Below are positions 14,815 to 61,113 of a stretch of DNA of 64,000 bases, in pieces. This DNA comes from Rhododendron vialii (Eukaryota; Streptophyta; Magnoliopsida; Ericales; Ericaceae). The position numbers and the translations under genes were made by a program. Within the stretch, counting starts at the first letter, position 1; every line of letters starts with the position of its first letter. A model generated the notes under the pieces. That model ran no database searches and had not been told where the DNA came from. It saw nothing but the letters and a program-made list of their open reading frames with translations. Where the stretch lies: contig NC_080563.1 in NCBI RefSeq assembly GCF_030253575.1, forward strand, positions 35,139,001-35,203,000. The letters run 5' to 3'.

Positions 14815-15425
14815 CTTTTGGTAATGGTGGTGGAGTGGTGGTGGGGGAGTGGTGGAGGTAGTAGGAGTGCTGGTAGTGGTGGTGGTGGTGTCGTGGTGGT
14901 GGAGTGGCGGTGGTGGTGATGGTGGTGGAGTGGTGGAGGTGGTGGTAGGAGCGGTGGTGTGTGGTGGTGTAATGATGGTAGTGGTGGAGTGGTGGTGGTG
15001 GTGGTGGTGGTGATGTGGTGGTGGAGTGGTGGAGCTGGTGGTGGTGGTGGTGTAGTGATGGTAGTGGTGGGGGAGTGGCGGTGGTGGTGATGGTGGTGGA
15101 GTGGTGGAGTGGTGGAGCGGTGTTGGTGGTGGTAGGAGAGGTGGTGGTGGTGGTGGTGGGGGTGGTGGTGGTGTAGTGATGGTAGTGGTGGTGGTTGTGG
15201 TGGAGTGGTGGTGGTGATGTGGTGGTGGTGGTGGTGGTGGAGCTGGTGGTGGTGGTAGTAGTGGAGGAAGTGGTGGTGGTGGTAGTGGTGGTGGTGGTGA
15301 TGTGGTGGAGGAGGAATGGTGGTAGTGGAGGTGGTGGTGGTGGAGTGGTGGAGGTGGTGGTAGTGGTGGTGGTGGTGGAGTGGTGGAGGTGTTGGTGGAA
15401 GTGGTTGTGGTGGTGGTATGACGGT
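14815..15425. repeat. GGT/GTG-rich minisatellite
   Basis: About 600 bp made almost entirely of TGG, GTGG, GGAGT and GATGG units, such as repeated TGGTGGTGGAGTGGTGGAGG. Long open frames on both strands encode poly-Thr/His/Pro or poly-Val/Trp/Gly and are products of the repeat, not genes. The G-rich strand is plus, so the tract has G-quadruplex potential. Confidence 0.9.
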
Positions 15426-39091: not shown

Positions 39092-39567
39092 AGTAATGGA
39101 CCTGCTGAATCGGCCAATACAAGTGAAATCTTTGTGCGAGATGGTTCATTGTTTCAAGACTAGGCCTCTTGCACTGTTAACATTTTCAACAGAAGAAATG
39201 ATCATGTGCAGACTTCTGATCCCAGAAAGGCACATGCTAGGATGTTTTGTCACGGAAGGCATCCAAGTACACTGATATCAAGGGGCTCTTTGGGTGATAA
39301 ATTAGGTACACTTCATCCCCGTCTAGATATAGGAAAGGAAGCTTCGACTTTCTTGCTCTGTACCATGCACTTTTTGTAATGTGAATGTAGAGCACATCAC
39401 AAGGAAAGATTGCTAAATTCCTGGACAAATGGTACTCAAATCATTTATAGGTAGACAATGAGGAAATTCTATCAAATTGATATTGGAAGTTTGGAACCAA
39501 TAATTTTGAATTTGCTAATCTGCCCTTTGTGTGTGCCTGTGGCCAACAGAAGACCAAGACCCCAAAT

Positions 39568-39783
39568 GAAAAAGGAAACAAAAGGAGTTTCTAAACATGA
39601 AAACTCTAGAAATTATGGAGCCAGTAATAACATATGCTCTTGCAGTTGCAAAAGATTGCAAAATCAAATGAGGAGAAAAAAGGAAACAAAAGGAGTTTCT
39701 AAACATGAAAACTCTAGAAATTATGGAGCCAGTAATAATATATGCTCCTGCAGTTGTAGAAGATTGCAAAATCAAATGAGGAG
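39568..39783 (+). repeat. exact 108-bp tandem duplication downstream of TRM9
   Basis: Two copies of a 108-bp unit, junction at 39675/39676, differing at about four positions. The unit length is a multiple of three, and one frame is open across both, giving a repeated 36-residue block with ICSCSC(K/R)RLQNQMRR. No start or splice context shows that it is coding. Confidence 0.85.
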
Positions 39784-40667
39784 GTAATCTGCATATGAAT
39801 TCTCTATATTGCTGGGTATTATTTTCTTTTCCTTTAAGTAGTAGAGTCCCTAATTCTCTCTTTTTCTCCATAACCTCTTCTTGTATTTTGTTGCTTTGTT
39901 CCTTTTTCTTCTTTTGTGTCTTTGAATTATCCCGCTGCAAGTTTCGGTAAAGATTTTTTTGCTGATTTTTCTATCCTCATGAACAGTGGAAGCACTAATA
40001 TATAGTCTTAAAAATGTACGAAGAATCAATGACTACGAATTTCTCTAATGGAGATAAATAGCTGAAGGGTAATCCTTTATAGATGTTCGAAACTTGGGAA
40101 ACTTGGTGCTGATTATGCGTTGAAGCAAGTTCAGAAGTTAGCTCTGTTTCTTATCTTTGTGATATTTATCTAATGATTCATCGTTGTGTATGTGTTAAAT
40201 ATTTCATATCTCATGCCCCTTGAGGCTATTCCATCTACTCGGGCATTAGTCGGGGCGGTGCCATTAACACTTTTCTTTTAGCAAAAAGCTAACAGATCCT
40301 GTTGTTGCCATTCTAATACTTGTGTGATGGTGTAGACAATTATTTTGAACAGCCCAGGACGGGAAACCTTCATGGGTGCTGTGGGATACTAGTATTTCTC
40401 CATTTTATGTATTTTATTCCCATGAATTATTTAGCATTTTGACCTCTTCAAATGCTTAATTATTCTACTTTAGTCCCTTTAAAATCAATATCGTATTACC
40501 ACTGTCTCTTCACTATCAATATTTGTATAATTTTGTCTTGAGGCTGTTTAAAGTTATTGTATTCCAGTATAGGAGTGTACTTACTAAAAGCCATTCATTA
40601 TTTGGAAAAGTCAACGGAAATTATTTTTATTGAAATTAACACGCAACCCACTACGCAAAATGTCCTA

Positions 40668-41053
40668 ACCCTCCAAGGGGTTGGGATTGGATTGGTAGAA
40701 TGGGGGTATTATCAATACCTTGTTTGGTTTTCCAAAAAAGGTCCGGACTATCAATCTGGTGGGATTGCTAATATCCCAAAATTGGGGTATTGCTAATACC
40801 ATCTTGGAGATGGTATTGATAATCCCATCCCATCCTCTTTTCATTATCAATTCCTTTTCATTACCAATCTCTTTTATTAATCCAATCACATCATCTAATC
40901 TCATTTCAAACAAACATAATATTACTAATCATATTATCGAATCTCATCCCAAACAAACATACTTATTATCAATTCCTTTTCATTACTAATTTCAATCTTA
41001 ATCTCATCTTCTTACGAATCTCATCCATCTATCATCGTTATCAAACAGAGCCT
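40668..41053. mobile_element. insertion in unit A, possible Harbinger-like
   Basis: Absent from the matching positions of units B and C. Flanked by TAA on both sides (CCTAA at left, CCTAA at right), the target size of PIF/Harbinger elements. The right end reads TATCAAACAGAGCC, a common MITE terminus, but the left end does not match it well. Confidence 0.5.
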
Positions 41054-41325
41054 AAATGCTTACTTTTCCTTCCCTAAAACAATGCTCAAGTGGAATGCAA
41101 TCCAAGTTGAGTTTGAGCTCAAATTGGCTACTTGTATGTATGGCCACCCAACTTTGTTTGTTTTCACATAACTCAAAACGGTACCGGATGAACTCCTCTC
41201 CATACCCCTCTGTGCTTCTCTTGTGATCATTCTGGAGTCAACATGATTAAAATCTTTCACCATGTAGAACCCGTATGGAAATTTATCTCTGCAAAAAATT
41301 TATCTGGGCAAACCATGCCTTATCT

Positions 41326-41740
41326 GGGAGGAAGGGGGGTTGTTGTCTCCTTGAGGAGCAGCCAGGCTGCTGTGCCAGTCAAAACAACATCGTACCGAGC
41401 CCGAAAACTTGATCCAAAACGTTCACTTGAAAATTTTCATCGCGTACGATGGCCTTGCAAAAAATTAAGTCAATCGAAAATCGATAACCTAGTGACCAAA
41501 TCACCTGTTTACAGTGTTATTATCAATGTCCAAAATAATGAGCCAAAAATTTAGTAAAAAGAGTGATTGGTTCACTAGGTTATCGATGCTCGATCACCTT
41601 GAATTTTTGCAAGGTCATAGTAAGCGATGAGAAGTGAACGTTTCGGATCAAGTTTTCAGGTTCGGACGATGTTGTTTTGGCCGGCACAGTAGCCTACTGG
41701 CCCTCAAGGGCCAGCAAGGGATAGCAGACCCCCTTCCCCT
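41326..41740. mobile_element. foldback MITE in unit A
   Basis: Inverted arms GGAAGGGGGGTTG and AGGGGAAGGGGGTC lead into CAAAACAACATCGT (left) and its complement (right). The centre pairs GGTTATCGAT and ATCGATAACC. It is absent from units B and C at the corresponding ACCATGCCTTA site. Confidence 0.75.
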
Positions 41741-41745
41741 TAGCT

Positions 41746-42055
41746 AAGGGTGTGCACAGATCGAACGGATCGGGTTTGACCCTGAACCCGATCATGTCGG
41801 GTAACAATATTTTAGGCCCAAAGCCAAACCGAACAAGTGGTAAGAACCGTTCGTGAGCCCGATTCTTTACGTTGGGTCGGGTTTACCCTTCGGGTTGGTC
41901 GGGTCGGGGTCATCCCCACGGGTAAGGGATGCACCAACCCGAACCGAGAATTGATTTTTAACAAAAAGTGAACCCGTTTTTGTCCGAACCACATGTTTGA
42001 CTCTGCCTGAGACCCTTCGAGTCAAGTCGGGTTGCGGATTTTTTTGCACACCTCT
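41746..42055. mobile_element. hAT-like MITE in unit A
   Basis: Ends AAGGGTGTGCA and (reverse complement) AGAGGTGTGCA bound 310 bp rich in GGGTCGGGTT and AACCCGA palindromic motifs. Absent from units B and C. Inserted directly beside the foldback MITE at 41326-41740. No clear 8-bp duplication. Confidence 0.65.
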
Positions 42056-42243
42056 ACTGGCTAAGGCTGATGCGATGTCATATCACCATCATAATTTCTT
42101 TTCTTTGTCTGCAAGGAAGAGTGTCCTGATGCCTGATGCCATATCACCATCATAATTTCTTTTCTTTGTCTACAAGGAAGAGTGTCCGAGAGTGATGGAC
42201 AATAAAGAACAAGTGGACAAGTCATAGTTTACTTCTTATATTG

Positions 42244-43151
42244 GGATCCGGGGGCTCTGCTGCCCAGAGGCGGCAGCAGCAGCCCCAACCCACGCCCTCA
42301 AAACGACGTCGTTTTAAGGGTAAATTGCTGAAAAGGGACAGAACGGCAACGTTTCGGTGGCAAAAAAATTTATTACCTCCCGCTTGCAATCCTATGAAGC
42401 AGAAACGTGATTATGAGAGCTTTAAAGACAAAATTTGATTATGTCTCTTTAGAATAATATGGTCAAAATAATAAGATCTTCACACCCGTTCAAACAGATT
42501 AAAAATTGGAGTGCTTAATTTTTTTAACCATATTTTTTAATATATAAACGGTCTATAAAAAAAGTAAGTGCTCAAATTTTCATTCCGTTTAAATCGGTGT
42601 AAAGACCTTGTTATTCTGATCATATAATTCTAAAGGATCGTAATTTAATTTTTTATTTTTATGACTCATATTAAGTATATGCCCTTTATTTAGGATACTG
42701 TGGAGTAGAAATGTGATTATGAGAGCACTATAAACAAAAATTAATTATGACCCTTTAGAATAATATTATCAGAATTATAAGATCTTTGCACCGATTTAAA
42801 CGGAGTAAAAATTTGAGCACTTAATTTTTTTTAGACCATTTAAATATTAAAAAATATGGTTAAAAAATTAAGTACTCCAATTTTTAATCCGTTTGAACGG
42901 GTGTGAAGATCTTATTATTTTGATCATATTATTCTAAAGAGACATAATCAAATTTTGTCTTTAAAGCTCTCATAATCACGTTTCTGCTTCATAGGATTGC
43001 AAGCAGGAGGTAAGGAATTTTTTTCCCACCAAAACGTTGCCGTTCTATCCCTGTTCTGTCCATCTTCAGCAGTTTACCCTCAAAACGACGTCGTTTCGAG
43101 GGTGTGGGTTGGGGCTGCTGCCCCCCTCTGGGCAGCAGAGCCCCCGGATCC
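42244..43151. mobile_element. 908-bp double-hairpin MULE-like MITE
   Basis: Flanked by a perfect 9-bp target duplication, CTTATATTG, at 42235-42243 and 43152-43160. Unit B (about 49740) and unit C (about 56155) show the empty site. Outer inverted repeats of about 300 bp begin GGATCCGGGGGCTCTGCTGC. Inside them a second, diverged inverted pair (about 42548-42660 and 42715-42840) repeats the inner half of the outer arms in opposite orientation, so each half folds on itself as well as with the other half. Contains ACGACGTCGTTTT palindromes. No transposase. Confidence 0.9.
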
Positions 43152-43869
43152 CTTATATTGGATTGTGTTTGGTTGTTGAATTGAATGGGATGAAATAGTA
43201 CAAATACAAATCCTCAAACCTCACCAACCACAATTAGTAGATTGTATTTCTTAACTTGTACGCAAATGTACAACATAAGATGTGTTTCTTACGGCCTAAC
43301 ATCGAGGTACTTCAAAACCTTTCCCATATTTCATGAATTTGGGTTAGGCTCGAATTTGAAAAAAAAAAATATCAATTTTTGAATTGGAAAATTGATGGTT
43401 TAATGGAAAAATCAAAGTCTGTTTGTGAAATTTATTTTCATGTTATTGCTCTAGTGTGCAAGGCACCTGCGCGGAATTTGAACTTAGCGGCAGCAAAAAT
43501 GTGTTAATTAAAAGAAAATTTGTATACAGAACACTATATAAAATAAAAATATTTATTCAGATTGAGAACTTATTGTGCCTAGTTTGTTTTATTTTGATGA
43601 GCTATATGATCTACTCACTCACAAGTTTAATGTATTTTCATCTACTCTTTTACCTTTTATGAATGGTCCAGTGCAACTATAAAAAAACAAACAAACAAAT
43701 AAACAAAAACATGTAAAAGATATACTAAAATTTTAATGCATTTTTTAACTCGAAGAATTCGCTTGATTTTTACACTCAACCTAACAGAGCCGCCTCTACG
43801 GCTGCTAGTGTGCTTGCCCAAATCCCTGAGGCTGACAGCATGAATGATGGTTACAAAACGATACTCTTG

Positions 43870-44095
43870 AGAAATTTTTCGCCGTGGATATATCTCACGT
43901 GGTATCTGCTCAGCACATTCGGATAGTTTAATACAGTTTTGGACGGTCCAGATTGAAACTCTCTCTCTCTCCTCTCACCCCGCCACTCCCTCTCTTTTTT
44001 CTCCCTCCAAAACTGAGCTGTCCAAAATTGCATTAGACTGCTCGAATGTGCCGAGCGGGCACCACGTGATACCCACCCGGCACTGAAAAAAAATT
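43870..44095. mobile_element. foldback MITE upstream of gene A
   Basis: Left arm TTTTTCGCCGTGG...CACGTGGTATCTGCTC, AGCACATTCG, CAGTTTTGGAC pairs with the right arm GTCCAAAATTGC, CGAATGTGCCGAGC, CACCACGTGATACC, CACTGAAAAAAA. A CT-rich loop separates them. Absent from unit C, whose sequence runs from ACAATATC straight to TTACGTAAGG. It sits about 180 bp upstream of the gene A TATA box. Confidence 0.75.
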
Positions 44096-44274
44096 CTACG
44101 TAAGGAGTGATGCTACAAACAGTGCATCTTTACTTTCCTTTCTCCACCTTTTGCAAGCTTTAACTAAATTCTCGTAGACTTTTTGTAAGTACCAAGGCTC
44201 CCCCCTATTAAACAGCCAAAAACTAGCCACCTTCTTCCACTAGTGCATTTCTTATTCCCCAAGCCTACAATCTC

Positions 44275-44283
44275 CTATAAATA
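44275..44283 (+). promoter_or_regulatory. TATA box of small-protein gene A
   Basis: CTATAAATA, 163 bp upstream of the ATG. The same box at the same place occurs in copies B and C, in a conserved stretch with AGCCAAAAACTA, CCCCAAGCCTA and CTCTCCCCATCCAT. Confidence 0.75.
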
Positions 44284-44445
44284 ACCCCACCACAAAAGCC
44301 TCTCCCCATCCATATATCACCACAAAATCCAACCGTAACCCTTCATTTCTAGCAACAAAATTTCTCTAAAACTCAGGGTGTTCAAGCTAATTTTCACGCA
44401 TTACTATTTCTGCCGGCAAATTTGCATCCAGTTAATTGTTAGGCC

Positions 44446-44697
44446 ATGGCATCAGCTAGTGCTTGTCTTGCCGAAGCTTACGTGATGGGGAAACTCCACA
44501 AGGAGAAATTGCAGAAGGACATAGCAGCTCAGAAGATTACAGCAACTGGTGATGGCCAGAGAGAAGCGATGAATAATCCTCGTGATCATGATCAAATGAG
44601 AACTACCAATTCGGATCATAATCATGGCTGCTTCTTTGGAATTTTCAAGAAGATCCACCCGAACTCCAACGCTTCGTCGCCAGATTTTATCAGATGA
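44446..44697 (+). CDS. small protein family, copy A (83 aa), unrecognised
   Basis: An 83-residue protein I cannot assign. The N-terminal half is a predicted amphipathic helix with LAEAYVMGKLHKEKLQKD (8-25). A polar middle with Asn, Asp, Arg and His follows. The C-terminus holds NHGCFFGIFKKIHPN, the most conserved part across copies. There is no signal peptide or membrane span, so a soluble cytosolic or nuclear protein is likely. Intronless, with TATA at 44275, about 160 bp of leader region and a GCCATGGC start context. Conservation of frame, length and promoter in copies B and C supports a real gene. Confidence 0.75.
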   Translation: MASASACLAEAYVMGKLHKEKLQKDIAAQKITATGDGQREAMNNPRDHDQMRTTNSDHNHGCFFGIFKKIHPNSNASSPDFIR

Positions 44698-45954
44698 GAA
44701 GATGTGCAATCACAATGGGGTGAACCAGCTAGGAGCTTGTGATCTGTTTTGATTAGTCAAAAAAAATGAGAAGCCCCTATCATTAGTTGAAATCAGAACT
44801 AATTTCTCTTGATGGGTAGTGATTTTCACGCTCTCTTTATTTATACTTCATATATTCTGAAGTTTGTTACTGTTTGGAGCCCTCCATGTATAATAATGGT
44901 ATATTTGATTTGAGGTAGTCTTTTTGTATTTTAGTTCTGAGCTACGGCACAGATAATGAATCTTGTCCATAAATAATTTTCTCCTATGTACCAATGCATT
45001 TATCATACCAATAGTCGGCAGCAGAGCCATAGATTTCCATCAAAACTATGCACTCAAAACTTGCAGTAATGCTTTTCCAATTAGTCCTTCGGCTTCTGTT
45101 TATAGGAATCGTTATAACCATGTTTGTTTTGATGTTGGAGTGAGAGGGAATTATAATGTGATAACGCATCACATATGCATTGATTCGTACCAATCCGGAC
45201 AGATGGAACTATGAAACTCAACTCCATTCCCTTTGCTAACCCCCATTCCCGACCTCTCCCGGGGAGATTCATACTCTGGACTACGGGTCCTGCCTTCCAA
45301 AAGTACAATCAAACGCCAGATTAATGGGTCCACGGGATTCGTTGTCCAATCCCCCACCTGGACTTGTCATCAAACATGGCCAAGCTCGAGGTCTATAAGT
45401 AGCCAAATCCAAATTTATTTTTAGTGCACTCATGTTCAGCTCGGAGTCCCTGAAAAATTAAGATGGATTTCATTATTTGTAACTCATTCCGGTACAACTG
45501 CTTCTAGAGCACTATAAAGAGCTTACAAAAGCCATCAAATTAAGAAGACAAACAACTTGTGGATTCAAATAGATTAGTAACAAAATGAAACGAACACTTC
45601 GAATTAGCCCTAAAAAGTCGCGACATTTACAATACTGCCCACAAATTTTGTTGCATACAAAACCCTATAACCACTCAGCTCCTAGTACAAGTTTTAATCA
45701 AATTGTCTGCAACATGAACTCATCACAAGGAGAAATCTAGCGGGTATTTTTCCTCAAGCAAAACCTTGAAGCGGGAACCATAGAAAGGGAGTTCGCACAT
45801 TGTAACCACCGCTCACCTGGATCATATATTGGTGTTTTCATAATGCGTCATGTCAATAGACTGCCAAGACAATGGCATATGATGCATAGTGCAAAATTCA
45901 ATAGTCTGCCAATATAGGGATGAAATTTGATAAAATTCAATTTGTGATTTTTTC

Positions 45955-46194
45955 CTAGTCTTTTTGTACATTGAGGGAGGCAAAACACTTTTTCCACTTA
46001 GTTATACATGTTGGCTCTACGTCACCTCCACATAAGCAAACTTCATCCACGTTAGCATATTCCATCAGTTGCCTGTAAGGGTGACATTGAACAGTGACAC
46101 ATAGTATACAGAGGAGATTGATATCTACAAAAAAAAATGCGAAACTGACTATACTTTGCAAGGAACAAAAAGTAGATAAATCATGTAGTTTCAA
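45955..46194 (-). CDS. possible duplicated exon or small protein in unit A
   Basis: A minus-strand frame of 79 codons with a hydrophobic N-terminal half and QCHPYRQLMEYANVDEVCLC, then GGDVEPTCIT. The same peptide is kept in unit B (53240-53602). The two differ by one replacement (E to Q) but by several silent changes, including AGG versus CGT for the same arginine. After CIT the frames diverge through a small indel. It may be a decayed exon of an unrecognised gene. Confidence 0.35.
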   Translation of the reverse strand: MKLHDLSTFCSLQSIVSFAFFFVDINLLCILCVTVQCHPYRQLMEYANVDEVCLCGGDVEPTCITKWKKCFASLNVQKD

Positions 46195-46493
46195 TATTGT
46201 GTAAAAATTACCTTAATGTAAGACTGTATAGAAAGTCTGAAAATGTAACTTTAAGGTGCACCGAAGGAGACCACTAGCGAAACAAACGGGAAAATTTTCA
46301 TGGGATCACTTTGGATCACAAATTTTCCGTTTTGAAAAGACAAGGTAACACTGTGCACAAGACAATCACCAATCCAAGAACAGTATAAACAAATATAACA
46401 GTATATAAACCCATACAACGGAGAAACAATAGTGTACCTACCTTGGGAGTACACAGGATTATGGTTCAGGTGCGCTAAACAGGACGGTTGCCT

Positions 46494-48178
46494 AACCCTT
46501 GAAAGTTTTCACAATAGCCTAGAAGTTGAGAGTGGGAGAACCAGAACGAGCCATGTCCTTGACTTGAAAGGTAATATTGTAGTGCCGACTATGGATGTTC
46601 GCCTTGAGGACCTTCACAAACTGGTAGTTTGTACTCTACAATTCCAGAGAGAAGTCAATTCAAATACAAAGAACGAGGAGTTGATCAAATCGGCGAGGAA
46701 GGAAGAATTAAACGAACTCGCACACACATACGTGCTTTTCGTTGTGCTCGTCAAGGGGTAACTTTGAGTATCCTCCCATCAACTCCAATCTCCGGGGGAT
46801 GTCCAGCAGAATTGGTCTAACAGAGACCATGTAACATTTGTCATGGGGAATATCCCCGACATCAAACCCCTGAAGGTATACAAAGCAAAGCTATGCTATG
46901 AGTATTAAAGGGGAGAGGGAAATAGTATTAAAGAGGGGAAGGGAGAGCAAATGAAGAAAAAGAATAATAGCTCGGTCAGATAGAGGGCCAAGCTGACTCC
47001 CTTTGGGTAAAATGGGTGCAAGTTCCTATCATTCGAGGGCAAAGCCTGTAGGTGGTGTCTCCCACCTTGTGAATCTTCTTGGGTTATGACAAAATTATTG
47101 AAGATTAGAAGTATCTGCCAGACATATATCAGGTATATCATTGGTGATGGTGGCGATACTCATCTTTAGATTGATATAACTGGCATCCCTCGCATAAAAC
47201 TGTAAAAGGATTGGTGAGAAGGTGGTATTTAAATTTAATCTTTGTAGATCACTGCACGCTGAAGTATCATCCATAATATCCCTTGGGAGTTGGAAATGGC
47301 CGAGCAGCGCGAATAGAACTACTTTGGAAAAATCATTGGCAACACCCCTAATTATCTTATTCCTAATCCAGTGTAGGCTGATAGAGTGGAATGGCTACCT
47401 TCAAAGCATGGCATTTGCTTCTTTGGTTGGGTAGTAATGTGCCTAGGTGGGCTATCTGAGACACTCCCCTCCTGTTGGCATTTGTGGTGGTGTTGGTTTT
47501 ACAACGAAATTATTTGTTGACTGTTGGATCAGGTGCTAACCAACTCACTTAAAAGCAATTGTTGTTAAGAGAAGATGCAACTTAAACTTTGAAGGGCATG
47601 AGAGTCTTCGCAATGCTGCTTATACAGCACGGACGGATAAAGACGGTTAGCCATTCCAATACGTTTGCCCCGTACCGCGCCAGCAGGAGGCGTCTCGAGG
47701 ACAGGGTAGATGCTGCCCCGTAAAGCCAACACTGACAAAAATAATAATTATCGATCAAAGAGAATCCTTCACCATAAGTTTTTACTCACGTACCCTGCTC
47801 TCGGAGACCGTCTTTCGGTACTCCAACAGCTCTGTTTCCGTGAGTTTACTCCTCTGTTGACCTTTTCGGCGGCGCAATCTTAAGCAGCCGCCTCGTCATC
47901 TTCCTTTCGGCGGCGCAATCTTGTTCGTCATATTCCTTCAGTTTCTTGTTCGTCATCTTCCTTCAGTTTCGTCCTCTTGTTCGTCATCTTCCATTAGCTT
48001 AATCAGGCTTTCCTCTGTTTCCGACGTCTTTTTTGTTGCTCCTCCCTCGACAAAAATCTCGCATAGGGATGCTGACCCGGTTCGCGAAAAATCACCATTC
48101 TAATCAAAACGGAACGAGGTTATAACAGAAGCAGTAATATGAAAACGGGTACGTAACAACTACGAAACAGCAACCAAT

Positions 48179-48221
<43 letters not shown>

Positions 48222-48617
48222 ACATTCGTGCGTATCGTCGCCGGAGCAGCCGAGATTTGTTCGATAAATTTGTAATTTAGGGCTTCAGAACACACGCACT
48301 AAGATATGTACTCCTATGTATGCTTTTTTAGTACTTTGTCGACAGAATATTACAATCACAGCAATCTATTCACGTAATTAATAGTTGACTATTCACGTAA
48401 TTAATAGTTGAAATTTATTTTTAATTTTGATCGGTTATAATTAATTATTATCGATCGCAATTAATTTTCAATTCAGATCATCCAAAATACTTTGAACGCA
48501 CGCGCAATTGAGTTCCATAATACTTTCTTTACAGAGAGCTAAAGTTTTTCTGTTTTTTAAAACATCAATGTAAATTTATGTAGACTCGGTTCAACAATTT
48601 TGCACCACATAACTTTT
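46494..48617. other. spacer between units A and B
   Basis: No gene recognised. It includes an open frame at 46432-46761 without motifs, a CTTGTTCGTCATCTTCCTTC-type repeat (47920-48000) and a (GA)n tract at 48181-48217. The flank of that tract, ATCGTCGCCGGAGC, resembles the ATG14 leader at 35057-35070. At 48470-48500 GATCATCCAAAATA with GAACGCACGCG recurs from about 16067-16098. Confidence 0.4.
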
Positions 48618-49009
48618 GAGACCTGCTACAGGTACAGATTTTTGTGCACAGATTGTGTACAGATTTTATTGTGGAGCCCACCACGGGTCCCACACAAATC
48701 ATCCAAGCCGTTCATTAAATGTAAAACATTTTTTCAAGGGTCCCCGTAAAAAATAAGCTCAATCCAATATCTATAGGTGCTTCATCCAACCATCTAACTT
48801 TTCATTTAGATTTTCGGATAATGAAAAGTTATACGATTGGATCGAGCATCTATAGGTATCGGATTGAGATTATTTTTTACGGGGACCCTTAAAAAAATAT
48901 TTTACATTTAATGAACGGCTCGGATGATTTGTGTGAGACCCGTGGTGGGCCCCACAACAAAATCTGTGCACAATCTGTGCACAGATTGTATGTGTGTGTA
49001 GCATTTCTG
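48618..49009. mobile_element. foldback MITE with 9-bp target duplication
   Basis: 392 bp flanked by ATAACTTTT at 48609-48617 and 49010-49018. Inverted arms include TGTGCACAGATTGTGTACAG, CCACGGGTCCC, GGGTCCCCGTAAAAAATA and AACTTTTCAT. The right terminus, CAGAAATGCTAC in reverse complement, is the same as the left end of the element at 56840-57245. A diverged half-copy follows at about 49026-49240. Confidence 0.85.
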
Positions 49010-51763
49010 ATAACTTTTAGATATTATAGCTTCACCCCTGAAAAAATCCAAAAAGTCAGTCCCCACAGATTTCTCACGCACAGGTCGTGATGTGGGGCTC
49101 ATACAAACGATTCAAATCGTTCATTAAATATAAAACATGTTGTCAAGGGCTTAAAGAGAAATCAGCTCAATCTGTTACCTATAAGTACTCAATCTAATCA
49201 TCTAATTTTTCAGTCAATTTCTGATTGGATGAAAAGTACTAAAATTACCTTAATATATGTCCAACGAATATTATAGTAACTATAAAAGCCATTCATTATT
49301 TGGAAAAGTCTACGGAAATTATTTGTTTATTGAAACTAGCACACAACCCACTACCTAAAATGTCCTAAATCCCATCCTTTTCCTTCCCTAAAACAATGCT
49401 GAAGCGCACTCCACGTTGAGTTTGAACTCAAATTGGCTACTTGTATGTATGTACGGCCACCCATCTTTGTTTATTTTTCCATAACTCAAACGCCACGGGA
49501 TGAATTCCTCTCTATGCTTCTCTTGTGGTATTCATTCTGAAGTCCAACACTTATGGTTTGAATCTTTCATTTCGTAGAACCCGTATGAAAACTTATCTCA
49601 GCCAAAATTTTATCTGTGCAAACCATGCCTTACTGATGCCTGATGTCTTATCACCATCATAATTTCATTTTCTTGCTCTTCAAGGAAGAGTGTCGAGAGT
49701 GATGGACTAAAAGGCACAGTGGACAAGTCAAAGTTTACTTCTATATTGGATTGTGTTTGGTTGTTGAATGTGATGAAATACAAATACAAATCCTCAACAG
49801 CAATGTTACTTACATTGGAAAGTTATCCTGAAAATATCTCAAAAAAAGAAATTAGTTGTTCGGAATCACTTGAATGTAAATCTGAACCATTGAGTTCTTT
49901 TTTCGAGGTACTTTTTCGGATTACTTAGAATTATTGAATTCTTAAACTTCACCAACCACAATAAAAAGTAGATTGTATTTCTTGCCTACATAAGATGTGT
50001 TTCTTACACCCTAACATTGAGGTACTTCAAAACCTAGCCCATATTTCATGAATTTGGATTAGGCTCGAATGCAAAATAATCAATTTTCGAATTGGAAAAT
50101 TGATGGTTTAATGGGAAAATTAAAGCCTATTTTATTTTCATGTTATTGCTCTAGTGTACAGGGCACCTTTGGAATTTGAACTTAGCGGCGACAAAAACAT
50201 GTCAATTAAAAGGAATTTCTATACAGCATATAAAATACAAATATTTATTGGGCCTACCTTATTTTATTTTGATGAGCTATATAATCTACTCACTCACAAA
50301 TTTAATTGAATTTTCATCTACTTTGACTTTTTATGAATGAACTAGTGCAAATATTAAAGAAAAATTAAAACAGGTTAAAAAAGATAGAACTTTAGTGCAT
50401 TTTTTAACCCAAAAAGTTGGCTTGAACCACTCAAAACCTAACAAAGCCGCCCCTACGGCCAAAGGCGGCTCTACAGCCTTCCATGGTCAACTGAACACCC
50501 AAACAAATTTTTTTTGCTTAGAATATATGTAATGAGCTAGCCTTTTCTTGAACACCCAATTTAATTAAATATCAATGAACACCTAGTTTTGAACACTTGA
50601 CTCAAAAAGAATTGAACACTTAACCCAAAACTAGTTGAACAATCAATCATAACCCAATTACGGCCTATCAATCCACGTAATTCATATTTGAACATTAAAC
50701 ACATTAATTACTTCAAATAAATCTCATAATCATAATAAAGAAATTGAAAAAGAAAGAGAAAAAAGAAGAATCTATTGGTGTAAGTATCATGCTCTGTGTT
50801 ACCTCTTCACTTTATTGTCGATGGTCTAAATGTGTTAATTCCACATTCATGATAATTATAACTACTTTATTTGTTTTTGTCTTATTAGCTAATAGAATTT
50901 ACAGACAAAGCTTTAAAAAAATTCAACTCCATTGCAAACCCCGTTAACTTGAATAATATTCCTTCAAATTTCAGACTATGACAGAAAATTAAATCTCATC
51001 ATGTTATCCTAAAGAACACCATATTTTCGAGAAGGTTTGTCTCAACATACTCGCTACAGTTTCTTTCAAAAGTGTTTCAGTAGATTAATACGCTGATTAA
51101 ACGTTAGCACAAAATATGAGATCTCATCTAGGACAACTGTAAATAATAATAATAATAATCCTCCTCCATTCTCAAAACAATATCTACTACTCAACTTTCA
51201 AAAAAAAAAATATTTTTTTGTGGAAAAAACAAGTATATATTTTTAAGTTATCAATTTGCCTTGTAGTTAATTTTTTTTAGAATAAAAGTTACTTTTTTGA
51301 CCGCACTATTTATACTAGTATATGACATTTTGTACTTATATTATTGGTTAAGAGATTAGCTAGTAAAGTTAAAGATAATTTCTGAACACTCTATTACAAA
51401 TTTCTGGAGCCGCCACTGCCTACGGCTACTAGTGCATGTGCTTGTCTGAGGCTGACAGCATAAATGAGTATGAGGGTTACAAAAAGCTGTTGATTTTGCC
51501 ACTCCTTTTTTTGTTAACGCCACTTTCCTGCAAGCGTATTTTTGGTACAAAAATAAACTTACAGGGGAATAACTTTAACAATGAGTGCCAAAATCATTTC
51601 TCTTAAAAAAATATCTTATCTTTACTTTTTCTCCACCTTTTGCAAGTTTTAAATAAATTCTCGTAGACTTTTTGTACCAAGTTCCTTCCCCCTATTAAAC
51701 AGCCAAAAACTAGCCACTTTCTTCCACTAGTACATTTCCTGTTCCCCAAGCCTATACAATCTT

Positions 51764-51772
51764 CTATAAATA
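51764..51772 (+). promoter_or_regulatory. TATA box of small-protein gene B
   Basis: CTATAAATA, 160 bp upstream of the ATG, embedded in the promoter block shared with copies A and C. Confidence 0.75.
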
Positions 51773-51931
51773 ACCCTCTAAAGGCCTCTCCCCATCCATA
51801 TATCACCACAAAATCCAACCATGACCCTTCATTTCTAGCAACAAAATTTCTCTGCAACTCAGGGTGTTCAAGCTAATTTACGTGCATCACTATTTTTGCC
51901 GGTAAAGTTGCATCCAGTTAATTGTTAGGCC

Positions 51932-52180
51932 ATGGCATCAGGTAGTGCTAGTCTTGCTGAAGCTTATATGATGGGAAAACTCTACAAGGAGAAATTACAG
52001 AAGGACATAGCAGCTGATCAGAAGATTACGACAACTGATGAGGGTCAGAGGGAAGTGATGAATAATCGTCGTGATCAAATGAGAACTACCGATTCGGATC
52101 ATAATCATGGCTGCTACTTCGGAATGTTCAAGAAGATCCACCCGAAATCCAAAGCTTCGTCGCCAGATTCTATCAGATGA
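51932..52180 (+). CDS. small protein family, copy B (82 aa), unrecognised
   Basis: Paralogue of copies A and C with the same layout: MASGSASLAEAYMMGKLYKE at the start, a polar linker, and NHGCYFGMFKKIHPKSKASS near the end. Relative to A it has one extra residue after DIAA (Asp) and lacks the HD of RDHDQ, both in-frame changes that keep the reading frame. Frame-preserving indels fit protein-level constraint. Intronless; TATA at 51764. Function unknown. Confidence 0.75.
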   Translation: MASGSASLAEAYMMGKLYKEKLQKDIAADQKITTTDEGQREVMNNRRDQMRTTDSDHNHGCYFGMFKKIHPKSKASSPDSIR

Positions 52181-53239
52181 AGATGTGCAATCACAATGGG
52201 GTGAACCAGCTAGGGACGAAAAATAAAATAAGAAGCCCCTATCATTAGTTGAAATCAGAATTAATTTCTTCTGATGGGTACGCTCTCTTGGAGCCCTATA
52301 TATATAAATTACTTTGTGTATTCTAAAGTTTGTCGGAATTTACTTTGTGTACCCTTTTTGTATTTTTACATCTGAGCACAGATAATGAATCTTGTCTCCA
52401 TAATAAATAATTTTCTCCTATGTACCAATGCATTGATCATACCATTATTCAGCGGCAGAGCCATAGATTTCCGTCAAAAATTTGCACTAAAAAACTTGCA
52501 CTAATGCTTTTCCAATGTCCTTCACCCTCTCTGTTTATAGGAATCGTTGTAACCATGTTTGTTTTGGCGTTGGAGTGAGAGGGACTTATAATGTGATAAC
52601 ACGCGCATATGCATTGATTCGTACCAATCCGGACAGACTGAACTATGAAACTCAACTCCATTCCCTTTGCTAACCCCCATTCCCGACCTCCCCGGGGAGA
52701 TTCATAGTCCGGACTACGAGTCCGGCCTTCCAAAAATACAAACAAACGTCTGATTAATGGGTCCACGGGATTCGTAGTCCAATCCCCCATGCACCTAGAC
52801 TTGTTATCAAACATGGCCAAGGCCAACCTCGAGCTCGAGGTCTATAAGTAGCCAAATCCAAATTTATTTTTAGTGCACTCATGTTAGGCTCGGATTCCTT
52901 GAAAAATTAAGATGGAACTCATTACTTGTAACTCATTTCGGTACAATTGCTTCTGGAGCACTATGAAGAGCTCACAAAAGCCATAAAATTAAGAAGACAA
53001 ACAACTTGTGGATTATTGATTTTGGGATGTCTTCATAAGCACTTGATGTGAATTCATAACCACTTTTTTCAACTCAACTTGCCACATCAGATTAGTGCAA
53101 GATTTGTACTCATAGCATTTTTGGAAATTTAGCGGGTATTTTTCCACAAGCAAAACCTGGAAGTGGAAACCATTGAAAAGGAGTTGGCGCGTTTTAACCA
53201 CCGCTCACTTGGATCACATATTGGCGTTTTCATAAAGCG

Positions 53240-53602
53240 TCATGTCAATAGTCCGCCAAGACAATGGCATATGATGCATAGTGCAAAATTCAATAGTCTG
53301 CCAATATTGGGACGAAATTGATAAAATTCAATTTGTGATTTTTCCTTGGTCTTTTTGCACATTGAGGGAGGCAAAACACTTTTTCCACCTAATGTTATAC
53401 ATGTTGGCTGTACGTCACCTCCACATAAGCAAACTTCATCAACGTTAGCATATTCCATCAGTTGACGGTAAGGGTGACATTGAACAATGACACATAGTAT
53501 ACGGAGGAGATCGATACGGAAAAGAAAAAAAAATGCAAGTACGATTTTGAAACCGACTATACTTTGCAAGGAATAAAAAGTAGATAAATCATGTAGTTTC
53601 AA
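53240..53602 (-). CDS. possible duplicated exon or small protein in unit B
   Basis: Counterpart of 45955-46194. It keeps QCHPYRQLMEYANVDEVCLC and GGDVQPTCIT but then reads a different frame because of a small indel, giving 120 codons overall. The N-terminal part is hydrophobic. The conserved block may be one exon; the extended tail is probably chance. Confidence 0.3.
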   Translation of the reverse strand: MKLHDLSTFYSLQSIVGFKIVLAFFFLFRIDLLRILCVIVQCHPYRQLMEYANVDEVCLCGGDVQPTCITLGGKSVLPPSMCKKTKEKSQIEFYQFRPNIGRLLNFALCIICHCLGGLLT

Positions 53603-53914
53603 TATTGTGTAAAAATTAGATGTAAGACTGTATAGAAAGTGAAAAAAAGTAATGAAAATGTAACTTTAAGGTGCTTTTTACGCCGAAGGAGACCACTAGC
53701 GAAACAAACGGGAAAATTCTCACGGGATCACTTTGGATCACAAAATTACTGTTCTGAAAAGAGAAGGTAACATTGTGCACAAGACAATCAGCAATCCAAG
53801 AACAGTATAAACAAATATAACAGTATAGGCCCGTACAACGGAGAAATAATAGTGTACCTACCTTGCATTACACAGGATTGCGGCTCAGGCGCGCTAAACA
53901 AGACAGTTGCCTGA

Positions 53915-55138
53915 CGAAATCCCTATTACTTATCAAGCGAAGTTACATCCTATCGAAGAGTTGCATTTATTTCTAAACTGTGTTTCCGAGTGTCTATGAA
54001 CAGTTGTTACAATCCACGATACAATCCAACAGTTGCCAAAACCCGGACATACAGTAGGATGTGGAGCATTTTTTTATAAATTCCTTAATACTCAATTCTG
54101 TTATGGGATTTGGACTCATTTGTGGATTTATGACCACATCCACTGTAGGTCTCGGATATTTCTTCGCTGTATCCAGCTTCTTCAAAAAAGACATCCAAAA
54201 ACGGGTAGCAACAATGACTGGTGCCCTATAGCTTCAATTTTTTCTAGGGAAAGAAAAGAAAAAGAAACGAGCTTTAATTCTTAATTTGAATGGTTCTCCA
54301 CTCTAATTATAGGTTAAAAATAGATTAGTGTCGGTTGCAGGAAAGGCTTTTCCCATGCTTTAGTTCCCATCGGTATATATGATACAAGTCGAATCCTAGA
54401 TGTAGAAATATAAGAAGGTGGACCTTCTTCCCATCAAAAGAAATGCAATTATTCTGTGTATTATAACCACGTTATGTACGACACTAAATAAAAATTAACC
54501 ATTTTTTATTGAATATTGTATTCAATTTCATGAAAAAATAGAAAATTCTTTCTTTTTCGAACAAATAAAAAGAAATAGAAAAATATTCGAAGCAGCTCTG
54601 GCACCCATTGATTTTGCACCTTCTAACCTCTCCAGTGTTGAATAATTGTCACGCTTTTCCATTCACTCTTTTTTGTTATATACTCCTCGTCAATTCTTTC
54701 CCTCCTCCCGGACTTAGCTTATCGATACGAGAACAAAGGTTGTCGAGTCAGAAATGAGCTCTTATTCAACGTGGACCTGCTAGAGCACCTGGAGTTGCTT
54801 TGATGATGGGTCCATGTTCGTTTTGGATTTTAAGGGAGTTTTTTTGGAGTAATGGGTAGAAAGAGATAGATATAGAAATGAGAGTAATAAATAAAGATAA
54901 TTCACTGGAGACCATGCATAGAAAAAAAAAAAGGGGGTCTAGAAACCCAGAACGAACATGATTTTGGCCCTTATGTGGGTCTCCCATCCAGGAAAGTGGG
55001 CTTTACTGGCCCAAGTCTTCATTTGTAGGACTCTCTTTCATGGTTCATGTAAGCTTTGGTCTTTTATTCGGGCCCTCTTGGGACACCCCGTATGGGTATG
55101 GCTATGGATGCTGCAAACAGGCCTTTTTCAATTGATGC
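53915..55138. other. spacer between units B and C
   Basis: No gene recognised. The sequence is AT-rich to about 54700 and mixed after that. It is not shared with units A or C. The composition at 54100-54600 could suggest organelle-derived DNA, but I could not recognise a source gene. Confidence 0.35.
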
Positions 55139-55370
55139 CGAAATGGGGCAACTTCAAAATGAAATTCAAGGAGCACAGTCGAGTGCTAAACTTCCTTTTG
55201 AGAACTACTGTTAGAACTATAGATCCTGCAAGGAAAGAAGCGCGCATTCGCATCACCAGAGAGCACATGCGCACTTCTTTCCTTGCAGGATCCATTGTTC
55301 CAACACTTTTCAAAAGGAATTTAGCACTCTACGGTGCTCCTTGAATTTCATTTTGCAATTGCCCCGAAAT
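55139..55370. repeat. 232-bp near-complementary hairpin
   Basis: Two arms of about 110 bp pair around a short loop near 55254. Matching blocks include AAAATGAAATTCAAGGAGCA, GAGTGCTAAA, CCTTTTGA and GATCCTGCAAGGAAAGAAG. A few mismatches and small bulges occur. Flanks show no clear target duplication. The right end abuts the start of unit C. A transcript would fold into a long stem, as in young MIRNA or siRNA hairpins. Open frames through it are artefacts. Confidence 0.85.
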
Positions 55371-56839
55371 TAGGTACACTTCATCCCCGTATAAATATAG
55401 GAAATGATGCTTCGGCTTTTCTTGCTCTGTAGTCTGTACCATGCACTTCTTGTAACGTGAATGTAGAGCACATCACAAGGAAAGATTGTTTGGAAAAGTC
55501 AACGGAAATTATTTGTTTATTGAAATTAACACACAACCCACCACCTAAAATGTTCTAAATCCCATATTTTTCCTTCGCTTGAAAGAACAGTGCTCAAGTG
55601 GAGTGCACTCCACGTTGAGTTTGAGCTCAAATTGACTACTTGTATGTATTGTATGCCCACCCAACTTTGCTTTTTTTCTCATAACTCAAAACGGTACGGG
55701 ATGAACTCCTCTACATACCCCTCTGTGCTTCTCTTGTGGTCTTTATTTTGGAGTCAACATTCATGATTCGAATCTTTCATCTCATAGAACCCGCATAAAA
55801 ATGTATGTGTGCAAAAATTGTGTCTTGGACATGTAGGAATGAAGAAATTAATTGCATTTTATTTCCAAAAAATAAAGGGCATAATATATCATTGAAACTT
55901 TAAACTGTTTGTTTTCGAAACAAAATGCGATTCATTTATGCGTTTTACCGGTACATGTTCACAACCAAAATTATATTCCCCCCATGTAAAAGTCAACAGG
56001 CTAAAACGAAAGACTTCAAAACCATGCCTGCCTTAGCTGATGCCTGATGTCATATGATCACCATCATAATTTCATTTTCTTGCTCGTGATCAAGGAAGAG
56101 TGTCGAGAGTGATTGGACTAATTAAGGCACAAGTGGACAAGTCAAAGTTTACTTCTATATTGGATTGTGTTTGGTTGTTGAATGTGATGAAATTACAAAT
56201 ACAAATCCTCAACAGCAATGTTACATACACCGAAAAGGTATCACAAAAATACCTCGAAAAGAGAAATCAGTGGTTCAGAATCACTTGAATGTGAGTCTAA
56301 ACCATTAATTTCTAGTTTCGAGATATTTTTTGGGTAATTAGAATTATTGAACCCTCAAACCTTATCAACCACAATAAAAATAGATTGTATTTCTTGCCTT
56401 GTACACAAATATACAACATAAGATGTGTTTGTTACTGAGAATACTAAAGTATTGTGTCCAGGCCTAACATCGAAAACCTAGCCCATATTTCATGAATAAA
56501 AAAAAAATCAATTTTCGAATTGGAAAATTGATGGTTTAATGGGAAAATCAAAGCCTATTTGTGAAATTTATTTTCATGTTATTGCTCTAGTGTGCAGCGC
56601 AACTACAAAATTTGAACTTAGCGGCGACAAAAACGTGTTAGTTAAAAGAAATTTTCATAGGATCTCTATGTAAAATAAAAATATTTATTCTGATGAGAAC
56701 TTATTGTGCCTAGTTTATTTTATTTTGATGAGCTATATGATCTACTCACTCACAAGTTTAATTGAATTTTCATCTACGCTGACTTTTTATGAATGGTCCG
56801 GTGCAAATATTAAAGAACATGTAAAAGATATAAAATTTT

Positions 56840-57245
56840 CAGAAATGCTACTGGTATAGCAGCTATTGTACAGCAGCAGACCACTTTTGCGGCCCGTCTT
56901 GGGTCCCGTAAAGATGATTAGAGCCGCTCATTTGTTCAAAATACTTCGTTTAGGATCCCTGTAAAAAATCAACTCAATCCGTTATCGGGAAGGGTGTTTA
57001 CGAATCATCAAACTTTGCTTCAAAATTTAGAGAAAGTTTGATGATTCGTAAACACCCTTTCCCAAATTTTGAAGCAAAGTTTGATGATTCGTAAATACCC
57101 TTCCCGATATTGGATTGAGTTGATTTTTTACAGGGACCCTAAACGAAGTATTTTGAACAAAATGAGCGGCTCCGATCATCTTTGCTGGACCCGAGACAGG
57201 CGCAAAAGTGGTCTGTGCGGGGCTGCTGTACCTGTAGCAGCATTC
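56840..57245. mobile_element. foldback MITE with 9-bp target duplication in unit C
   Basis: 406 bp flanked by TAAAATTTT at 56831-56839 and 57246-57254, absent from units A and B. Arms pair over most of their length; GTTTGATGATTCGTAAACAC occurs in both orientations at the centre, giving three related copies. Ends resemble CAGAAATGCTAC, shared with 48618-49009. Confidence 0.85.
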
Positions 57246-57474
57246 TAAAATTTTAGTGCATTTTTTAACCCAAAAAATTTGCTTGAACCTCTCAAAACCT
57301 AACAAAGCCGCCCCTCCGGCTGCTAGTGTACTTGCCTATATGTACACATCACATGTTTGCGTATGTATATGTTACATTGAAGACAGAGACAAGCCTACAA
57401 AAAATTGAATTTCACTTGTATCACTTTGTCATTATAATAGATAATTTAACAAAATATTTCTAAATGCGGATCCT

Positions 57475-57625
57475 ATATCCCGGATCAGGGGACCCTGTAG
57501 CACTCCAGACGGGTTGCACGGTGCAGCGCTTCATCCGAACATTCCAAAATACCTTTAAATGGTGAGATTAAACACTGCACGATGCAGCTCTTTTGAAGCG
57601 CTGCACCATCCTGCCTTCCCCTATC
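57475..57625. repeat. small inverted-repeat insertion in unit C
   Basis: GTTGCACGGTGCAGCGCTTC near the left and GAAGCGCTGCACCATCCTGC near the right pair across about 100 bp, framed by GGGGACC/TTCCCC. Not present at the matching place in units A and B. Too short and too poorly bounded to classify. Confidence 0.45.
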
Positions 57626-57842
57626 CTTGAGGCTGACAGCATGAATGATGATTACAAAACAATATCTTACGTAAGGGGTGATGCTACAAACAATGTCTTT
57701 ACTTTCCTTTCTGCACCTTTTCAAGCTTAATTAGATTCTCGTAGACTTTTTGCAAGTTCCAAGCCTCCCCCTGTTGACCAGCCAAAAACTAACCGTGTTT
57801 TTCTACTAGTACATTTCTTGTTCCCCAAGCCTACACAATCTC

Positions 57843-57851
57843 CTATAAATA
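57843..57851 (+). promoter_or_regulatory. TATA box of small-protein gene C
   Basis: CTATAAATA, 182 bp upstream of the ATG. Just downstream, AAAGGCCTTTCCCCATCCAT occurs twice in tandem, which accounts for the longer leader than in copies A and B. Confidence 0.75.
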
Positions 57852-58032
57852 AACCCCTCCAAAGGCCTTTCCCCATCCATTCAAAGGCCTTTCCCCATCC
57901 ATTTACAAAATCCAACCACAACCCTTCATTTCTAGCAACAACAAAAAATTCTCTATAACTCCGGGTGCTCGGGTTGATTTACGTGTACCACTATTTCTAT
58001 CTATAAAGTCGCATCCAGTTAGTTTTTAGGCC

Positions 58033-58278
58033 ATGGCTTCAGGTAGTGCTAGTCTTGCTGAAGCTTACGTGATGGGGAAACTCTACAAGGAGAAATTGCA
58101 GAAGGACATAACAGCTCAGAAGATTACGGCCACTGGTGATGGTCAGAGGGAAGTGATGAAAAATCCTCTTGATCAAACGAGAACTACCAATTCGGATCAT
58201 AGTCATGGCTGCTTCTTTGGAATGTTCAAGAAGATCCACCCGAATTCCGACACTTCGTCGCCGGATTCTGTTAGATGA
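58033..58278 (+). CDS. small protein family, copy C (81 aa), unrecognised
   Basis: Paralogue with MASGSASLAEAYVMGKLYKE at the start and SHGCFFGMFKKIHPNSDTSS near the end. It lacks two residues in the RDHDQ region relative to A, again in frame. Intronless; TATA at 57843; stop followed by the same GATGTGCAATCACAATGGGG 3' flank as copies A and B. Function unknown. Confidence 0.75.
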   Translation: MASGSASLAEAYVMGKLYKEKLQKDITAQKITATGDGQREVMKNPLDQTRTTNSDHSHGCFFGMFKKIHPNSDTSSPDSVR

Positions 58279-59041
58279 AGATGTGCAATCACAATGGGGT
58301 GAACCAGCTGGAAGCTTGTGATCTGTTTTGTGATTAGCCAAAAAAAATGAGAAGCCCCTATAACTTTGTATATTCTTAAGTTTGTAGGAATTTACTGTTT
58401 GGAGCCCTCTATAATAAGGGTGTATTTGATTTGAGGTAGTCTTTTTGTATTTTTACTTCTGAGCTACGGCACAGAGAATGAATCTTGTCTCCATAATAAA
58501 TAATTTTCTCCTATGTTCCAATGCATTTATCATACCAATATTCAGCGGCAGAGCCATAGATTTCTATCAATTGAAACAGAAATTTGCACTCTAAACTTGC
58601 ACTAATGCTTTTCCAATTAGTCCGGTCTTCGGCCTCTGTTTATGGAAATCGCTATAACCATGTTTGTTTTGGTGTTGGAGTCAGAGGGAATTATAATGTG
58701 ATAACCCCCATTCCCGACCTCTCCCGGGCCGGGGAGGTTCATAGTCCAGACTACAAGTTCAGCCTTCCAAAAATACAATCGGCGTTTAATGGGTCCATGG
58801 GATTCCTAGTCCAATTACCCCACCTGGACTGGTTATCAAACATGGCCAAGGCCAACCTCAAGCTCGAGGTCTATAAATCCAAATTTTCTCCTATGTACCA
58901 ATGCGTTTTCAATTATTCTTTTTCTTTTCATTTTTGGAAAAATTGGACTCGTTTGATCAGTTTTTCTAAAAGCCTCCTTCCCCGAAAACAGCCAAAACCA
59001 AAAAAGTCTCCGATCCCTGCTCCCCAAGCCTACGTAAAAGC

Positions 59042-59050
59042 CTATAAATA
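59042..59050 (+). promoter_or_regulatory. TATA box of small-protein copy D
   Basis: CTATAAATA, 79 bp upstream of the copy D ATG, within a shortened version of the shared promoter (CCCCAAGCCTACG, CCCTCCCCAGCCATAT). A run of about 17 C lies between it and the ATG. Confidence 0.6.
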
Positions 59051-59128
59051 TCCCTCCCCAGCCATATTATCATTACAAAACCAAACAAACCCCCCCCCCC
59101 CCCCCCCAGTTCTATCAATAATTTCGCA

Positions 59129-59359
59129 ATGGCATCACCTAGTTCTAGTCTTGTGGAATTCTACAAGTTTAGAAAAATCCAAGAGGAGAAAATCAAGAAG
59201 ATTGAGGCAACTAATGATCAGACGGAAGCGATGAGTAATCCTCGTGATTGAACGGGATTGACCCATTCAGATCATCATCAGGGGGGCTGCTTCTTCGGAC
59301 TGTTCAAGAAGATCCATCCGACGACGTCCGACGCTTCACCCCAGGATTCTGGCAGATGA
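59129..59359 (+). pseudogene. small protein family, copy D, one in-frame stop
   Basis: The fourth and most diverged copy. It reads MASPSSSLVEFYKFRKIQEE, KIKKIEATNDQTEAMSNPRD, then TGA (59249-59251), and continues in the same frame through HHQGGCFFGLFKKIHPTTSD to a stop at 59357-59359. The stop falls where the other copies have a Gln codon. All other differences keep the frame, including the C-terminal motif. Either a recent pseudogene, a 40-residue truncated protein, or a sequencing error at one codon. Confidence 0.75.
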
Positions 59360-60043
59360 AGAGGTCCGTCGCAACGGTCGGTGATTAGCTGGTTCCTTTT
59401 GATCAGTTTTGATTTTTGTTAAACGGAGTCGGAAGACTAAGCTGAAGCATTAAAAACTTCAACAACGTACCTATACATGTGCGTATGCAGAATTTGTATT
59501 TTCCATAGGAATTGGATCCTCTCCGGTTTTTAATTTTGACTGGCGGGGACAGTTCAAATATGTACCGTCTGGATCGTCAATTGGTGTAATAGATGGTTCG
59601 AATAGACTAATACTATGTTGTTCGGTCCTCTTTCTCATGACGTAGTTGTAATGGGTTGCTGGTATTATTCATGTGAGTATATGTTTGGTTGAATTGCAAT
59701 TGTTTATTGAGCTAATAATAATATATGGTGAGATTTCCAAATTTTCCTTTCTCCTTAACAAATTTTGCCATCTTTCTCATGAATTGCGGGTTTCCCCTGC
59801 TATTCACTACTCACAAGCATGCCTGCCACATTGGGCACAGCCGCTATTGACACCCTCAGGCCATGTAACTTAGGGATGACTGACTAACAATAGGATGGGT
59901 TATGTTCCAGAGTTCAGGTGCATACCTTAATTGGGAACTTTTGAAACTTTGTGGAGCAGCAGAAAGAAGCACGAGAGCTCGCGCATATGGTGCAGGATTT
60001 TGCCCCACATTCCTGCACCAGATCGGGTAACAGTTATTGATTG
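59360..60043. other. intergenic, no gene seen
   Basis: 3' flank of copy D and AT-rich spacer. No coding region or transposon ends recognised. Confidence 0.5.
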
Positions 60044-60690
60044 CTATTCAGAGTCTTCATAGACTTCTCCATCAGAAAGGTCGTCGAAAGCTCGAACATC
60101 GAGCTGGTAACGAAGGATTCCTCCGATCCCACCAAAACCTCTGCAGAACTGAGACCCCTCTTGTGATTTATTGGTGACAAACTCCAAGGTGCAACCAATT
60201 TCATGTACTCATTGGCAAACCACTACAAAAGTGACATCTTTTCCTGAACTTCCGACTCAACAGAGGTCTCTGGATCTCGGAAGTTACTTTGGATGGAGTC
60301 TTGTTCCTTGTTCATGTGCTTTATAACTATTTCACCCGAAGTGGTATTTTTCAGCACACGCCTATTAATGTCCAGATTTTCCCACACAATAAGCGTCTCA
60401 ACCGCACCCATCTCCAAAGTTTTCAGCATGTCCTCTACGCCAAATACATATTTCCCAGTATCCTGACTGATCTCCTCAAAGTACTTCCCCATCAAGCGCT
60501 TCTCCTGAATAAACTTCACATTTGAAAGGATTTCAGAGGACAACTCAATTGCCTGATTGAAACCGTTTTCCCCTCCATAAGAAACATCGACTACATTCAG
60601 AATTTTCGCCTGAAGTCTGGGGTCAAACATATCAGCCTGACTCTGCTCTGTCTTGAAATCTGCTGATGATTTAGCATCGTATGGGGCAAA
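60044..60690 (-). pseudogene. eRF1: truncated eRF1 (peptide chain release factor 1) pseudogene
   Basis: The C-terminal half of plant eRF1. It begins at [19 protein letters not shown] and runs through [47 protein letters not shown] and KHMNKEQ to EVQEKMSLL. There an in-frame TAG replaces the Glu of LLEWFANEY. A one-base deletion follows, after which [32 protein letters not shown] and EVYEDSE complete the domain that binds eRF3. The N-terminal stop-codon recognition and GGQ domains are missing. A 5'-truncated processed copy fits, although plant eRF1 coding regions are themselves intronless. Confidence 0.9.
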
Positions 60691-61113
60691 CATTAGAGAT
60701 ATCCACACAAGCAATGACTAAAAACAACTAGATGAATGAAACAGCAGATCAGATAAAAGGTTGAACTATTGAATGCAAAAACAACATAAAATTTGCACAA
60801 ACGAGGATATCATGTATGAGACAACTGTTGCAACAACTTTGAAGGACTGAGATAACATAAAGATAAAGTATAAGTAAGGCATCATGTGGATTGGAGAAAA
60901 TAAAACACCTTAGACGTTGGGGTCACAAATTTAAAGTTATCATACAGAAGACAATAAATCAAAAAAACCTCTGTCTTCATAATGCAATGAACGATAAATT
61001 AATTCTAACACTCACAGGAAATCCATTATGAAACAAGGAGTCTTTTGCAAGTCGCACCAAAACACTAATTTGAAATCCATCAGCCCAAAAAAAAAAACAT
61101 AACTGCACGGTAC

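Follow-up and report, generated by a model that had tools for sequence, protein, structure and literature searches.

The stretch of DNA analysed here (the window; 64,000 nt, positions 35,139,001-35,203,000 of Rhododendron vialii contig NC_080563.1) carries four similar short open reading frames (ORFs) in a common orientation, which raises the question of whether they are genes or the remains of genes, and how they came to lie together. A previous reading based on the letters alone, referred to below as the sequence-only reading, had described them as a family built by duplication, and all the coordinates and the strand that it had given for the four copies turned out to be right:

44446..44697, plus strand: copy A, intact ORF of 83 aa
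51932..52180, plus strand: copy B, intact ORF of 82 aa
58033..58278, plus strand: copy C, intact ORF of 81 aa
59129..59359, plus strand: copy D, taken as an older copy, its frame kept apart from an in-frame TGA at codon 41 (59249-59251)

The proposed lengths of 81-83 residues and the keeping of the frame thus hold for A-C, the coding region of each being a single open frame. The three proteins share a pairwise identity of 80-83% in the genome protein search, with E-values between 9.6e-35 and 5.5e-38, and copy D is matched by the A, B or C queries at 51-56% identity over the aligned part, with E-values from 9.5e-11 to 2.2e-13. Judged by these values, the likeness among the four copies is far beyond chance. 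The motif that had been called nearly invariant was found, as GC(F/Y)FG(I/M/L)FKKIHP, in 4/4 copies, D included; the C-terminal block is GCFFGIFKKIHP (A), GCYFGMFKKIHP (B), GCFFGMFKKIHP (C) or GCFFGLFKKIHP (D).

The likeness of A-C extends well beyond the genes, into duplicated units of about 3.4-5.9 kb, insertions included, the boundaries of which are approximate:

40585..46496, plus strand: duplicated unit around A, interrupted by insertions; the final part, 45732 onwards, is common to B only
39299-39412: block beyond unit A, shared with C only
49283..53915, plus strand: duplicated unit around B
55485..58884, plus strand: duplicated unit around C, stopping just short of D's own upstream region
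55367-55488: block beside unit C, shared with A only

Copy D is matched to these units by blastn from the middle of the coding sequence (CDS) to just past the stop only (59196-59414), and for this reason we take it as an older copy and not as a fourth unit. Neighbouring homologous genes with homologous flanks are therefore present in the case of A-C, D having a short homologous flank only. Self-complementary foldbacks occur in and between the units, at 42243-43152, 41349-41709, 48643-48983, 55145-55365 and 56831-57255, the largest of them (42243-43152; 910 bp at 86%) in unit A only, and a direct repeat of 108 bp, in two copies 96% alike, lies at 39569-39783.

The TATA box, the leader and the 3' flank are common to A-C, in agreement with the sequence-only reading. 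A TATA box was located before each of the four copies:

44276..44283, plus strand: TATA box of copy A (TATAAATA), 170 nt upstream of the start codon
51765..51772, plus strand: TATA box of copy B, 167 nt upstream of the start codon
57844..57851, plus strand: TATA box of copy C, 189 nt upstream of the start codon
59043..59050, plus strand: TATA box of copy D, 86 nt upstream of the start codon

The distance from the TATA box to the start codon is thus 86 nt in D versus 167-189 nt in A-C. In a multiple alignment, D nevertheless resembles A-C upstream of the gene, in the TATA region and in two further blocks, these stretches being CAGCCAAAA, TCCCCAAGCCTA and CTATAAATA. The homologous units around A-C together with the common promoter blocks bear out the view that gene and promoter were copied together by segmental (tandem/proximal) duplication. 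It should be noted that an upstream ATG occurs in copy B only, at 51821, opening a 5-codon ORF between the TATA box and the start, with a difference in translation among the copies as a possible consequence, and that the leader of D contains a run of 18 C (59090-59107).

Concerning the extent of the family in its own genome (532,647,506 bases, 13 contigs, all covered), protein searches with A, B, C and each half of D, which score the best candidates only and could miss very distant relatives, returned these four places plus two matches with E-values near 5. The latter two (L005, E 4.96; L008, E 4.79) are without a family-like ATG-started ORF of at least 40 aa and were rejected as chance matches. 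The first half of D as a query matched itself and, at E 0.7, copy A, with B and C not listed. At the DNA level, the C unit compared with the whole genome gave seven matches, all at the places of A, B, C and D, in a search that skips very common words and could miss repetitive relatives. By both the protein and the DNA searches, with the best candidates scored, the copies are confined to one locus and not dispersed.

The family had been called unrecognised, and so it stayed, no usable match being obtained in Pfam, NCBIfam or PDB. Pfam gave no family at E 1 for A-C; the sole match in NCBIfam, of copy C at E 0.062, scored 12.5 bits versus a cut-off of 477 and is no family fit; and in PDB, copy A found one chain at E 3.2, the profile of A-C finding none. 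Similar uncharacterised short proteins are presumably present in other dicots. As expected for a plant gene, no relative was seen among the 3 pattern stretches in viral contigs and the 59 in prokaryote contigs. Rfam gave no match at gathering scores and ARAGORN no tRNA. Among the publications found on Rhododendron, on tandem duplicates and on short or lineage-specific proteins, none describes the family as far as title or start of the abstract shows, and those retrieved by a text search for the motif have unrelated titles.

As for the surroundings, the window contains 36 stop-to-stop ORFs of at least 110 aa, of which 20 were scanned against Pfam, together with the ATG-started parts of two more. 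Five of the 20 matched at E 0.01 (methyltransferase, C2, SKP1, SRF-type (MADS-box) and ATG14). With regard to the two ATG-started parts, that of the ORF 58605-59231 (plus strand) had no Pfam match, and that of the ORF 60223-60693 (minus strand), adjoining the array, matches domains 2 and 3 of eRF1, which we take to be as in a pelota-type protein. A TGG trinucleotide array of about 203 units with 72% matches occupies 14825-15417. Because of it, three overlapping frames of the minus strand stay open, and it is the probable reason for the GC skew of 0.42 seen between 14 and 16 kb.

The strongest argument for the ORFs being genes, or having been genes through most of their history, is the conservation of the frame. 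In the three-way alignment of A-C, the flanks contain 20 indel events, 16 of them not multiples of three; within the CDS there is one indel of 3 nt and one of 6 nt, both multiples of three, as had been claimed, and none that breaks the frame. If indels were evenly spread, the probability that none of the 16 frame-breaking ones falls in the CDS is 0.008, a value from a single alignment, obtained with a 2-nt event at the stop codon left out and changing to 0.006 when that event is added to the flank. This indel was counted as flank, since all three copies have AGA TGA at this point and the 2 nt can thus be aligned immediately behind the stop. When three copies were simulated neutrally, with indels at the flank rate and the observed substitutions, all of them stayed open in 0.16% of 20,000 trials (P 0.0016); with substitutions as the only changes, the probability that no stop arises is 0.36-0.38. 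In the comparison of D with A-C, the frame is also kept, the single TGA apart. The frame has thus been kept better than neutral drift predicts.

The substitutions speak less clearly. By NG86, dN and dS are 0.081 and 0.186 for A-B, 0.076 and 0.206 for A-C, and 0.093 and 0.183 for B-C, so that the pairwise dN/dS is 0.37-0.51, exceeding 1 in 0/3 pairs. A codon model fitted by maximum likelihood (ML) gave an omega of 0.57 for A-C, with a likelihood ratio of 2.22 versus 1 (P 0.14), and the inclusion of D brought it to 0.68 (P 0.16); the test was run with our own script, the log-likelihoods of the free model being equal to those of IQ-TREE. Of a dN/dS well below 1, which the sequence-only reading had named as a sign of function, there is accordingly only a weak indication, the value from ML not being distinguishable from 1. 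The synonymous, nonsynonymous and stop changes observed number 13, 23 and 0, versus 9.3, 25.7 and 1.0 expected from a neutral simulation; the synonymous excess has a P of 0.108, and synonymous excess and lack of stops jointly a P of 0.046.

As regards divergence from D, measured on 38 and 31 codons only, dN is 0.35-0.43 and dS 0.31-0.42 before its stop, and dN is 0.20-0.25 and dS 0.44-0.53 after it. Since dN is lower and dS higher after the stop, the existing constraint seems to be located in the C-terminal part. The K2P distances of the CDS of A-C are about 0.10-0.11 (0.107-0.111), those of the close upstream region 0.16-0.27, those of the close downstream region 0.06-0.21 and those of the flank 0.10-0.13, the last taking in blastn-alignable stretches only. 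The CDS distance is thus below that of the close upstream region and not always below that of the close downstream one, some 3' windows being as alike between the copies as the CDS. The CDS is therefore not clearly slower than its surroundings and, because an omega of 0.57 cannot be told from 1 (P 0.14), the data demonstrate neither strong purifying selection nor positive selection.

Concerning age, a study of R. simsii places a peak of duplications at a Ks of about 0.65 and dates it to around 78 My (PMC7572368), from which a rate of 4.2e-9 per site per year was computed. With this rate, and on few sites, the split of A-C falls at about 22-25 My ago and that of D at about 37-64 My ago. Which two copies agree varies along the unit: in the proximal promoter it is A and B, and in a portion of the 3' flank it is A and C. 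The runs of like sites number 299 versus 390 in shuffles (2435 columns), 171 versus 218 with the poorly aligned stretches dropped (1835 columns) and 93 versus 120 from 44097 on, with 0/5000 shuffles as low as observed in each of the three tests; these tests show clustering and not its cause. The mosaic of shared sites could reflect gene conversion or layered duplications, either of which would be adequate.

The predicted protein is of about 9 kDa, with a pI of 8.7-9.1 and a GRAVY of -0.76 to -1.02, i.e. polar and without a hydrophobic stretch, the highest 19-residue hydropathy being 0.49. In a hydropathy scan, no hydrophobic N-terminal signal peptide was seen, the top 19-residue value in the first 30 residues being 0.18-0.49, and a scan of the hydrophobic moment did not single out the N-terminus. 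The composition of the C-terminal motif, with an invariant Cys beside aromatics and two lysines, suggests that it may bind a membrane or a partner.

The above results have to be weighed against other explanations of the same array. The copies could be decaying duplicates, i.e. former genes that are now drifting, three of them having remained open by chance and through conversion among themselves, which would agree with an ML dN/dS indistinguishable from 1, a copy D already broken, a CDS divergence near that of the alignable flank and the chance of more than one third that substitutions alone leave no stop. The lack of any frame-breaking indel in the CDS, both by itself and jointly with the substitutions, the frame kept with respect to D too, and the C-terminal motif kept in all four copies nevertheless argue against pure drift and make this explanation improbable. 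The possibility that a mobile element spreads the duplicated unit, with the ORF as its passenger, could draw on the foldback elements in and beside the units; the DNA of the C unit, however, matches this window only in the whole genome, very common words being skipped, and the largest foldback belongs to unit A alone, so that a mobile origin must be regarded as very improbable.

Alternatively, the array might be adaptive, its copies being kept for dosage or diversifying fast under positive selection in stress, defence or reproduction. A study of R. simsii reports a higher Ka/Ks for tandem and proximal duplicates, and an enrichment of tandem copies in expanded families for terms of self-defence, development and adaptation (PMC7572368). 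Short promoter motifs also vary between the copies, a variation seen without a chance control, and the 5-codon upstream ORF is peculiar to B. Against it stand the absence of a single pair with dN/dS above 1 and the loss of the frame in D. The dosage or rapid diversification suggested by the sequence-only reading thus left no sign, dN/dS being neither above 1 nor distinguishable from it, and such an adaptive role appears unlikely.

Based on all the above, it is highly likely that the array consists of real protein-coding duplicates, and the copies are probably real genes under weak constraint. As a whole, a plant nuclear tandem/proximal duplicate array of one small protein-coding gene is the best explanation, held with moderate confidence. 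According to it, unequal crossing over would have copied the unit about 22-25 My ago, D would be a remnant of an earlier copy of the family, and A-C would have been mixed by gene conversion after the duplication of the unit. The product would be a roughly 9 kDa basic, polar and cytosolic protein lacking both a signal peptide and a transmembrane segment. It would have a stretch of charged residues in the N-terminal part and the conserved Cys-aromatic-Lys motif at the C-terminus. This motif might dock the protein either to a partner or to a membrane, in the latter case possibly through an S-acylated form of the invariant Cys, the docked protein acting as a small peripheral adaptor or regulator; the docking step is a tentative and rather doubtful part of the explanation.

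The array is an ordinary one of its kind, tandem/proximal duplication being a common mode of plant gene multiplication. In R. simsii, 4746 tandem (14.4%) and 3732 proximal (11.3%) duplicates were counted (PMC7572368); the present copies resemble them in being neighbours on the same strand with a relaxed dN/dS, and differ in that the product has no Pfam family match. Camellia-specific genes have a mean length of 92 aa, fewer exons and a higher isoelectric point, 57% of them having originated from duplication (PMC8631334). The family is like these lineage-specific small plant genes in being short, basic and duplicated, with one open coding frame and no family match. A bolder version, quite unlikely to be right, would have a small intracellular protein family restricted to Rhododendron or Ericaceae and to one locus, with the Cys-aromatic-Lys motif as a new docking module kept for more than 35 My and the rest of the protein drifting. 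If real and expressed, the family would add to the plant proteins a group of small, so far unnamed members that escapes the domain libraries, and its four copies of different ages at one locus would offer a natural series for the duplication, conversion and decay of short genes.
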